Positions 40,993 through 44,991 of a stretch of 64,000 bases of DNA are shown here, one piece after another. Numbering within the stretch: the first letter of the stretch is position 1; each line of letters opens with the position of its first letter. Where the stretch lies: NCBI RefSeq assembly GCF_019039035.1, contig NZ_JAHNZT010000039.1:1-64000 (forward strand), given 5' to 3'. The notes beneath the pieces were generated by a model. It did not search any database and was not told where the DNA came from. It saw only the letters and a program-made list of their open reading frames with translations. Made by a program: the position numbers and the translations under genes. The stretch comes from Citreicoccus inhibens. Lineage in GTDB: Bacteria > Myxococcota > Myxococcia > Myxococcales > Myxococcaceae.

Positions 40993-41197
40993 GCCCCTGG
41001 GGTTTCCCTCCGGCCCCACAACGCGCCGCGTTGTCATGCGCGGCGCGCGGGTGGGGCCGGGGAAGTTGAAGCTTGATTCAGGTTTCAGGTGTCTCCGCGC
41101 TGGCCACGGCGCCGGGGGTTGCGTAGCCTGCGCGCAACTTTTCCGGCGGCGGGCGGGCGCAATGCCTCCGCGTGTCGCCCCACTCGTGGAGAGGCAG

Positions 41198-41944
41198 ATG
41201 CAGCTGAAGGACCTGAAGATCATCGTGACCGGCGGCGCGCAGGGCATGGGCGCGCACTTCGCGACGCGCATCGCGGAGGCGGGTGGCCAGGTGGCCGTGG
41301 GTGACGTGAACGAGGAGCGCCTCGCCGCGCTGCCCGCGGGCATCCACCGCCGCAAGCTGGACGTGTCCAGCGAGGAGGACGTCACGGCCTTCGTGCAGTG
41401 GGCGCACGGCGCCATGGGCGGCCTCAACGGCCTCATCAACAACGCGGGCATCCTGCGCGACGCGCTGCTCGTGAAGAAGGACCGGACCACCGGCCAGGTG
41501 AAGAAGCTGTCCACCGCGGACTGGAACGCCGTCATCGGCGTCAACCTCACCGGCGCCACGTTGATGGTGCGCGAGGTGGTGGCGAAGATGGCCGAGACGG
41601 ACCAGGGCCCCGGCGTCATCGTCAACATGTCCTCCATCGCGCGGCACGGCAACCGCGGCCAGTCCAACTATGTGTCCGCCAAGGCCGCGCTCGCCGCCAA
41701 CACCGTCACCTGGTCGCGCGAGTTCGCCCCGTTCCGCATCCGCGTGGGCGCCGTGGCCCCAGGCATGATTGAGACGCCCATGACGCAGGGCATGAACCAG
41801 AAGGCCCGCGACGCGCTGGTGGCCAGCATCCCCGTGGGCCGCATCGGCGTGCCCGAGGACATCTGGGTCGCCGTGAAGTTCATCATCGAGTGCGACTACT
41901 TCAACGGCCGCACCATCGACGTGGACGGCGGCCTCAACTTCTAG
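41198..41944 (+). CDS. SDR-family oxidoreductase (FabG-like)
   Basis: 248 residues from the ATG at 41198 (GGAGAGG upstream). TGGAQGMGAHFA cofactor loop, NNAGILRD, the Ser of NMSSIARHG and YVSAK with catalytic Tyr/Lys; PGMIETPMT and DVDGGLNF close the fold. A classical FabG-like 3-oxoacyl reductase by layout; the true substrate is unknown. Stands alone; the next gene converges beyond a strong hairpin. Confidence 0.92.
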   Translation: MQLKDLKIIVTGGAQGMGAHFATRIAEAGGQVAVGDVNEERLAALPAGIHRRKLDVSSEEDVTAFVQWAHGAMGGLNGLINNAGILRDALLVKKDRTTGQVKKLSTADWNAVIGVNLTGATLMVREVVAKMAETDQGPGVIVNMSSIARHGNRGQSNYVSAKAALAANTVTWSREFAPFRIRVGAVAPGMIETPMTQGMNQKARDALVASIPVGRIGVPEDIWVAVKFIIECDYFNGRTIDVDGGLNF

Positions 41945-42217: not shown

Positions 42218-42664
42218 CTAGGAGTTGCGGTCGAGCGGCATCATCGTGCCTGCTTCGAACTCCGGCGTCCGGCGAAGTTGGTCCAACACGCGCGGAGAAC
42301 AGCGAAGGTGGAGCATGGGCAAGGAACCGCCCGGCTCGCTGACAGCGCGAACCGCGCCAATGAGCTGATGCGCTTCCAGCCAGCGCATGAAGCTCTCGCG
42401 GAAGCGCGCGTGCTCGGCGAGGCCGGATTGATAGACCTCCGCCCTGGAGCGCGCGGGCGCGGGTGAGGGCACACGTCCGCGCGGAGCCGGATGCTCCCGG
42501 GGCATGACGGTGACGTCAATCCAGTCGGCGGAGACCTCCATGCCCGACGAGCCGGGCAACGGGCGCACTCCTCCCGACATCCCTCCCGGCAAAGGACGGA
42601 CCGTCGAGGTCGTCCGGGGCGGCATCTCACCAGGCTCGCCCGGCACGCCAGCTTTCCTGCTCAT
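42218..42664 (-). CDS. small protein with I9-propeptide-like fold, paired with subtilase
   Basis: 148 residues from the ATG at 42664 (GAAGGA eight bases upstream); a GTG at 42727 that overlaps the subtilase stop (GTGA) is the alternative. The first 42 residues are low-complexity with a repeated RPLPG. From residue 46 the order is strand (DWIDVTVMPRE), helix (ARFRESFMRWLEAHQ), strand (AVRAVSE), strand (MLHLRCS), helix (PRVLDQLRRTPE), strand (FEAGTMMP). This is the ferredoxin-like beta-alpha-beta-beta-alpha-beta order of I9 propeptides of subtilases. I infer a chaperone or inhibitor acting in trans on the protease of the upstream gene; not proven. Confidence 0.65.
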   Translation of the reverse strand: MSRKAGVPGEPGEMPPRTTSTVRPLPGGMSGGVRPLPGSSGMEVSADWIDVTVMPREHPAPRGRVPSPAPARSRAEVYQSGLAEHARFRESFMRWLEAHQLIGAVRAVSEPGGSLPMLHLRCSPRVLDQLRRTPEFEAGTMMPLDRNS

Positions 42665-42723
42665 GGCCACATCCTTCCCAGGTCCGGTGCTCCACACGGC
42701 ACCGGCCCCGGCAGCTACCGCCG

Positions 42724-44139
42724 TCACCTGAACACAGCCAGGCCCCTCCCCGTCCGGTGGTTCCCCGAGCGAGGGAGCTTGAGCGCATTGGCCAAGATCA
42801 AATCCCGCACCTCGAGCGCCGTCAAGTCAGGAGCACGGCACCGGTACAGTGCTGCAATACCGGCTACATAAGGCGCCGCCATGCTCGTGCCACTCATTCG
42901 CTCGTAGAACGCCTGGTTGTTGCAGCGGCGCTCGGTGCTGGAATACACGTTCACTCCGTAACCCATGACGTCGGGCACACTTCGCCTACCCACGACGCCG
43001 CTGGCCGAGAAAGTGGCCACGTTGCGCTCGAAGTCGACTGCACCGATGGCCAGTGCCTCGGGAAAGGCCGCTGGGTAACCAACCGTGTCGGGTCCACTGT
43101 TGCCCGCCGCGACAACGGCCAGGACGTTGCTGTCCTGCAGGCGACGAATCATGGTCTGGAGCGCGCGCAGGTTGAGCTGGTAGTCCGCGTCGCTGATGCC
43201 GGGCGGCGGCTGGAGCGGGAAGCCGAGCGACAGGTTCACGACAGCCGGACGCGTGGCGTTCTCCGGGCGGCTGAACTGATGCAGCAGCCACTCCATGCCG
43301 GCGGCCACGCGGCCGAGGCTGGTGCGGATGGTCTCCGACTCGATGACCGACGCGACGTAGAGGTCCACCTCCGGCGCGACGCCGTGGTGAACCCCCGCCG
43401 CGATGCCGCACACGTGGGTGCCGTGGCCATCCGGGTCGAAGCCGCGCACGTCCCGCGCGGGGTTGTGAGGTGAGTTGGGGAACAGCGACACGTAGCGGAA
43501 CTGGATGACCTTGCTGGCGTGCTCGGGGTGGTCCGCGTCCACGCCGGTGTCGAGGATGCCGAGCATCACGCCGGCGCCCCGGATGCCCTGGGCATGAGCC
43601 AGGGGCACGCCGCACTCCTCGGGCCACTCGCGCTCGGCCAGCGAGCTCATGCCGCGGTTGCGCGGCCCCGTCTGTCCCGCGGACACCGGTCCGGGGAACG
43701 ACAGGGGGACCACGTCCGGGATGAACTCGAAGTCCTGCGCCAGCTCCCCGCGCGCGGCCTCCTCGGCCTTGGGCGAGTAGAAGTGCGCCATGGTGGCGCC
43801 GATGAGCGGCATGTAGCGGAAGCTGCCCTCCTCCGCCCCCGTCTGCTCCGTGACGGGCGAGCCGGGCAGCGGCACGGTGGTGGCGTCCGCGCCTCGGGTG
43901 AGGCGTTTGGACGCCCCGGCCTTCTTCGACAGCTTGCGCCCGCTCACCTGGGGCCGAGGCCCCGGCAACGTGGCCGAGCGCAGGCCGAGACTCGCCAGCG
44001 CATCCGGCGCCTTCTGTGACACCGAGAAGCGCAACGCCGTGTTGCGCAGGAGCACCCGCTCGCCCTGCTCCGTGCCGCGTACGCCGGGCCGGGCCTGCGA
44101 TTCGATGGACTCCTTCGGAACCAAGAGAAACGACTTCAT
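42724..44139 (-). CDS. S8-family serine protease (subtilase)
   Basis: 471 residues from the ATG at 44139 (AAGGAG nine bases upstream). Catalytic triad Asp197 (GILDTGVDADH), His239 (DGHGTHVCG) and Ser419 (SGTSMAAPY); oxyanion Asn347 (AAGNSG). There is no signal peptide: the protein starts MKSFLLVPKESIE, and a long Ser/Lys-rich N-terminal region (1-150) ends in a stretch like the tail of an I9 prodomain (ELAQDFEFIPDVVPL). It is therefore perhaps cytoplasmic or exported by an unusual route. A small propeptide-like protein is encoded just downstream in the same operon. Confidence 0.92.
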   Translation of the reverse strand: MKSFLLVPKESIESQARPGVRGTEQGERVLLRNTALRFSVSQKAPDALASLGLRSATLPGPRPQVSGRKLSKKAGASKRLTRGADATTVPLPGSPVTEQTGAEEGSFRYMPLIGATMAHFYSPKAEEAARGELAQDFEFIPDVVPLSFPGPVSAGQTGPRNRGMSSLAEREWPEECGVPLAHAQGIRGAGVMLGILDTGVDADHPEHASKVIQFRYVSLFPNSPHNPARDVRGFDPDGHGTHVCGIAAGVHHGVAPEVDLYVASVIESETIRTSLGRVAAGMEWLLHQFSRPENATRPAVVNLSLGFPLQPPPGISDADYQLNLRALQTMIRRLQDSNVLAVVAAGNSGPDTVGYPAAFPEALAIGAVDFERNVATFSASGVVGRRSVPDVMGYGVNVYSSTERRCNNQAFYERMSGTSMAAPYVAGIAALYRCRAPDLTALEVRDLILANALKLPRSGNHRTGRGLAVFR

Positions 44140-44991
44140 GGGTTGTCTGCTCCTTGGACTACCAATCCACGTCGGGAGCGTGGTGTTGAGGGCTCCCGAA
44201 TGACGACCGCGTCCGCCGGGCATCCGGAGCCTCTCGGCCCCAGCGGTGATGTCGCGGTGGGCAGGCGCACCGCCCTCGCCTCCGCGACCTGGGGCCTCGC
44301 GGCGACTGTCTTCGCGCCGCGCGCCCTCGTGACCGAGGCCCGGGGACTTCCCGCCCGGCGCCTCACCTGCGCATCCGGCCCTCCTTCCCGCATGGCGCGG
44401 GCACGACACGTGTTGCCATGCGGGGTCTCCCCGCGTGGGGTGTCCGGCCTGGGGCTCGTGCGATGGGCCAGAGGCGGCGGCAGGGCCTCCGTCGCGGGTT
44501 GCGTCCCGCCGCGCGCGCAGGGGCAGTCCCGCATCGGCCGGGACCCACCGGGCCGAGCTCCCCTCACGCTGTCTCCCGCGCCGTGCGCGCCGGGAGGTGT
44601 CTGCTTGCCCATCAGGTCTTCCCCGTCCCGAGCGAGGCCTCCCTCGCATGGTGCGATTGGAACGCAGCCCCCTGACAAAAACTCACGGAATTCCAGCAGT
44701 AGACGCCCCTGACCGGGGGTAACGGTCCTATCAGACCTTGCCAGAACGTCCGGAAGTATGAGCGATTCTCCGGGGGAAGGAGCAAAGTGCCGGCATCCGC
44801 ACAGGGGCGGTGTCCTCCAGCGGACCTGGAGGGGCGGGTGAGAAGCGGGCGAATGGGTGCGCCGGAGCCCGAGGAACCGGCCTGCGGACCGAGCTCAAGA
44901 AAGAAATGGGGGAAGGGCGAGCCCCGCCAATTGTTCCCCTAGACCCCAAGGCGGACTAAGGGAGAGGCCTCCGCCTCATTGGAGCACCGAC
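44140..44991. other. long divergent non-coding region, subtilase to Lgt
   Basis: About 850 bases, unusually long for this window. Open frames exist on both strands but lack ribosome sites and have the skewed composition of mirrored frames. Visible structure: GCGGGG-TCT-CCCCGC (44420-44434), a GACCG/CGGTC hairpin (44711-44727), and an AT-richer patch at 44672-44705. It must carry two promoters and could hold a small RNA, but I see no specific evidence for one. Confidence 0.45.

Follow-up and report, generated by a model that had tools for sequence, protein, structure and literature searches.

The question raised by this locus is how a subtilase is controlled when a gene just downstream encodes a small protein with the predicted fold order of a subtilase propeptide. 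The window (the whole stretch of DNA that was analysed, 64,000 nucleotides) carries both genes on the minus strand; their coordinates are given in Table 1. The initial annotation had described a protease with a separate, co-encoded regulator and had considered the arrangement an unusual control device. The first part of this description stands. The locus is very probably a popCD operon, whose PopD holds PopC back until starvation, and belongs to a bacterium of the Myxococcus/Corallococcus family. The novelty does not stand: a protease with this separate regulator is the published PopC/PopD system. The present analysis shows what the locus is, how its genes are ordered, how conserved it is and which fold is predicted for PopD.

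Table 1. Features of the popCD locus and examples of PopD-like paralogues. Positions are those of the window unless a locus is named.
Feature	Position	Strand	Basis
popC: S8 subtilase, 471 aa, 50.2 kDa	42724..44139	(-)	Pfam S8 domain, triad Asp197/His239/Ser419; matches at 76-100% identity in 64 genomes
popD: partner/inhibitor, 148 aa	42218..42664	(-)	NF048005, conserved ATG start, AlphaFold2 model
GC-rich hairpin, popC-popD intergenic, abutting the popD ribosome site	42678..42711	(-)	26-sequence comparison
Likely popD Shine-Dalgarno (GAAGGA), 5' of ATG 42664	42672..42677	(-)	sequence reading
Likely popC Shine-Dalgarno (AAGGAG)	44150..44155	(-)	sequence reading
PopD-like paralogues	L065:4522-4827; L066:4343-4603

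A Pfam search of PopC returned Peptidase_S8 alone (residues 188-455). The catalytic residues were found where they had been annotated, Asp197 in LDTG, His239 in HGTH and Ser419 in GTSM; the N-terminal part (to about residue 180) has no Pfam match. By eye, no signal peptide is obvious in the N-terminus MKSFLLVPKES, as had been noted at first and as is published for M. xanthus PopC (PMC6434023). The protein thus has the traits of PopC: a complete S8 triad, a size of 50.2 kDa (against about 50.8 kDa) and a domainless N-terminal part. No Pfam match was found for the 148-aa protein encoded downstream, which matches the curated NCBIfam equivalog model NF048005, "PopC secretion inhibitor", at 213.8 bits (E 9.2e-64; cut-off, 200 bits). 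Gene order, protein sizes, S8 domain, domainless N-terminal part, lack of an obvious signal peptide and a PopD above the NF048005 cut-off are shared with the M. xanthus pair. The differences from the M. xanthus-labelled locus L020 (identities of 86% for PopC and of 72.5% over 120 residues for PopD) are those of ordinary sequence divergence; the N-terminal glycine/proline-rich stretch is longer in PopD here.

The popC gene of M. xanthus is taken here to be MXAN_0206. Its product (50.8 kDa) is described as a protein with a subtilisin domain at the C-terminus, no domain recognised in the N-terminal part and no signal peptide; the full-length protein is secreted by starving cells, retains its N-terminus once secreted and needs the TonB-dependent transporter Oar for secretion (PMC6434023). 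According to the same source, CsgA p25 is cut by PopC outside the cell to give the C-signal p17; PopD complexed with PopC inhibits secretion in fed cells, and the stringent response leads to its degradation; PopC is enriched in the periplasm, fed cells included (PMC6434023). popC and popD are reported to form an operon (popD: MXAN_0207); FtsH-D is important for PopD degradation and ppGpp is involved (PMC4320627). The pair is placed in the C-signal pathway in two further papers (PMC11821767, PMC9548883).

The complex, the secretion block, the degradation, the export and the substrate are carried over from M. xanthus and would, by analogy, be the same here. PopC would be synthesised as a subtilisin-like protease lacking a signal peptide. 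PopD, for which translation begins at a separate start just downstream, would bind PopC and stop its secretion in the fed cell. Starvation would lead to the degradation of PopD, for which M. xanthus uses the stringent response and the protease FtsH-D; full-length PopC would then leave through the TonB-dependent transporter Oar and cleave CsgA p25 to the C-signal p17. The periplasmic enrichment of PopC in fed cells is not easily reconciled with a PopD in which, as in PopC, no signal peptide is obvious.

A short-chain dehydrogenase gene lies beside the operon (window 41183-41944 (+)), convergent with popCD, and a similar gene is found at the same place in L075, L076, L077 and L079. CsgA, the substrate of PopC, belongs to the same superfamily; the gene at 41183-41944 is at most a candidate for it.

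The adjacency of the two genes, which the initial annotation had proposed to test by a survey of related genomes, is conserved. When the PopD protein was used to scan 84,980 species genomes, 20 named loci were obtained; the titles of 19 are Corallococcus, Myxococcus, Pyxidicoccus or Myxococcaceae bacterium, and that of one is Comamonas. PopC is encoded directly upstream and on the same strand in 20/20 (partly missing in L015). Among 145 genomes of the order, 64 have PopC (E <= 1e-60) and 66 have matches to the PopD model (E <= 0.001; 53 above the cut-off); extending the survey to 195 genomes of the phylum leaves the latter count at 66. The best PopD match lies 3' of popC, on the same strand, in 64/64 PopC genomes. 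The ends of the PopC and PopD matches are 58-69 nt apart in all but one genome, which has a partial PopC match and a distance of 216 nt; the PopC-linked PopD falls under the NF048005 cut-off in 11 of these 64 genomes. PopD matches without PopC (G092 and G142) are single and marginal (E about 1e-3). That popC and popD are unrelated neighbours, with a fold order read by chance, would agree with the weak fold match described below; this reading is already refuted by the adjacency, runs against the above-cut-off match to the PopD model and the published complex, and has next to no probability.

Two loci call for separate mention. L018 (title, Comamonas sp. KCTC 72670) has a popCD locus closely like the Myxococcus loci and probably comes from a mislabelled myxobacterium. 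The sole unpaired PopC-like place in the 145 genomes of the order is that of G082 (L142:4334-6982 (-)). It encodes a protein of 882 aa that resembles PopC in its C-terminal part (75% identity) and whose S8 domain has lost the triad Asp (LATG) and His (DGFGTH): a PopC-like pseudoprotease. No Pfam match at E <= 0.01 was found in the remainder of this protein, nor any PopD match on its contig.

Coupling of popD to popC through a GTGA overlap, as initially suggested, is unsupported; the conserved popD start is an ATG further downstream with its own ribosome site. This ATG lies 59 nt past the popC stop and is preceded by GAAGGA; an ATG is found 55-66 nt past the popC stop in 54/54 loci read. The NF048005 match begins at residue 22 of the GTG reading (MSRK). 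In seven of the 20 named relatives, the popD frame upstream of the ATG either has no start codon between the popC stop and the ATG (L016, L023, L025, L027) or is interrupted there by a stop codon (L017, L019, L020). These sequences place the start of popD not at the overlap but at the ATG, which follows the hairpin and a ribosome site.

The hairpin has 13 pairs. In 26 chosen sequences, 99.4% of the cells are paired, against at most 51.5% in slid registers. Eleven cells, at two pairs, are changed on both sides (0/500 shuffles as high). Counted by pair, such double-sided changes are no more numerous than in shuffles (361/500 as high), nor are pair types (496/500 as high); eight pairs are invariable. 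Single-sequence folding of the window hairpin gives a z-score of only -1.41. The comparison makes a real, conserved popC-popD hairpin likely, not proven, and this hairpin might set the PopC:PopD ratio.

The AlphaFold2 model of PopD (21 sequences; mean pLDDT 68.2, pTM 0.51) consists of about 45 low-confidence residues followed by a predicted ferredoxin-like domain (residues 48-142). Its elements (E49-55, H74-98, E105-109, E118-122, H124-132, E136-140) follow the beta-alpha-beta-beta-alpha-beta order that had been read from the 148-residue sequence; block-mean pLDDT is 80-92 at residues 81-140 and 63-74 at the first strand. This order is that of Inhibitor I9 (PF05922) propeptides and is a very common fold. 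No PDB match at E <= 0.001 was found by Foldseek for the model. The Tk-subtilisin propeptide 2z57_B was ranked 44 (E 0.86), with the highest target-normalised TM-score (0.59) among the 50 rows listed; by VIA-align it was ranked 10 (Z 5.3, 64/65 residues, rmsd 3.1), a Z of such size possibly meaning a common arrangement only. 8u45_A and 8gkp_J (Foldseek ranks 18 and 34), short chains (91-92 residues) in entries for the alkaline protease of Aspergillus fumigatus, are presumably propeptides. All these propeptide rows (Foldseek E 0.54-0.86) are level with Lrp proteins, aspartokinase ACT domains, RRM and other ferredoxin-like proteins. The fold order named in the initial annotation is predicted, and its propeptide matches are tied with those of unrelated proteins. 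Folding of popCD as a single chain was possible because popD shares the frame of popC in 17/20 named loci; the resulting model, from popC through the stop to popD of in-frame relatives, had a mean pLDDT of 39.7, too poor to read.

These matches bear on the reading of PopD as a detached I9-type propeptide. In that reading, its beta-sheet would pack against the pair of surface helices of PopC and the tail at its C-terminus would enter the active site, so that PopD would inhibit catalysis and perhaps aid folding in trans. The predicted order, the ranks of 2z57_B and the presence of the two presumed propeptides are in favour of it, and the ties with other ferredoxin-like domains are against it. 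Pfam PF05922 matched 0/21 and 0/26 PopD-family members at E <= 10, a search in which HMMER filters drop many weak matches. Only five unrelated families were listed in the 26-member Pfam search (best: DUF6343, E 0.013, four members). Sequence-profile searches of the PDB with PopD gave three chance matches (E 1.3 or worse) in one case and none in the other.

Profile comparisons were made by hhalign with 14 myxobacterial I9 domains, chosen from 30 loci as full or nearly full above-cut-off matches (omitted: L085, which lies at the end of its contig, and 15 loci with weaker or partial matches). The PopD profile scored 10.4 against I9, which was equalled by 22/60 column shuffles, and 11.2 with a wider alignment (27/100 shuffles as high); a split-half I9 control scored 173. 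The signal is somewhat better for the C-terminal halves (11.6), where just 6/100 shuffles were as high. The tail is similarly divided: TMMP is near-invariant in the close PopD group, which speaks for the I9 reading, but has been lost from the PopC-linked PopDs of greater distance, L075, L076 and L079, which speaks against it.

A further I9 criterion, applied before to SUB1-ProM (PMC6993865), is an acidic pair after the last strand (Glu69/Asp71 in BPN'), by which the two helices on the surface of the protease are capped. In the register of a gapless last-strand match, these places are acidic in 0/26 PopD-family rows, vs 11/14 and 9/14 I9 domains; in the same register, an acidic residue does lie three places further on in 18/26 rows. 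SUB1-ProM of Plasmodium, a stand-alone propeptide-like inhibitor of SUB1, is likewise a separate small protein encoded beside subtilase genes (PMC6993865). It differs in that its own capping Glu is kept and inhibition of SUB1 has been shown (PMC6993865), whereas PopD lacks this residue and is known for a secretion block. The I9-like stretch in which the N-terminal 150 residues of PopC had been said to end is not confirmed: no Pfam I9 match was found in the N-terminal part, 32/60 shuffles were as high against I9 and 87/100 against the I9 C-half, and model confidence is low.

An I9-type propeptide acting in trans, as initially put forward, thus retains its fold order and loses the backing of PF05922, of the profiles (bar the weak C-terminal half) and of the capping residues; it is rather unlikely. 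From sequence and model, PopD may be propeptide-like in action. It is not filed as an I9 propeptide because the sequence signal is not firm, the structural matches are tied with unrelated proteins and the capping residues are absent. Among the papers searched, none combines PopD, myxobacteria and propeptide; the I9 idea is not claimed to be unpublished.

A better, if still less than even, prospect is that PopD acts against export and not against catalysis, by binding the N-terminal part of PopC and hiding determinants of membrane crossing. The published phenotype is inhibition of secretion (PMC6434023), and the N-terminus stays on secreted PopC; some stretches of the N-terminal part are invariant among 17 relatives. 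The paralogues described below point the same way, as PopD-like domains where no subtilase was found argue against a fixed link between this domain and S8 catalysis. As to how PopD contacts PopC, we favour a mode of binding peculiar to PopD over a plugging of the active site in the manner of I9.

Besides popD itself, this genome has two PopD-like places (E 1.2e-31 and 1.6e-16), and two or three PopD matches in all are present in 61/64 genomes. Thirty paralogue loci, a subset of those detected, were examined (L065-L074, L078, L143-L161). The paralogues have about 85-130 residues and sometimes occur as two in tandem (L067, L078, L143). With PopC and seven further S8 domains as tblastn queries (E <= 1e-6), a subtilase was found near them in 0/30 loci, 6-10 kb being covered at each; a very divergent one could escape this search. 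Their neighbours include M28 peptidases, large Ig-domain proteins and histidine kinases, the last recognised by sequence motifs and similarity, not by family search. A putative S8 protease flagged in L070 by a loose regex is, by Pfam, an M28 peptidase. Seven PopD-family proteins searched against NCBIfam all match NF048005, all below the cut-off, including the PopC-linked L076 and L079. It is conceivable, though quite doubtful, that proteins with the PopD domain form a broader group of small myxobacterial regulators that act in trans and share a propeptide-like fold. On this view one line would have become the partner of the S8 protease PopC that is degraded on starvation, and sister lines, those next to M28 peptidases, large Ig-domain proteins or histidine kinases, would restrain other proteins likewise.

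What the locus encodes is a switch already known, the one that sets the timing of the C-signal in fruiting-body formation.
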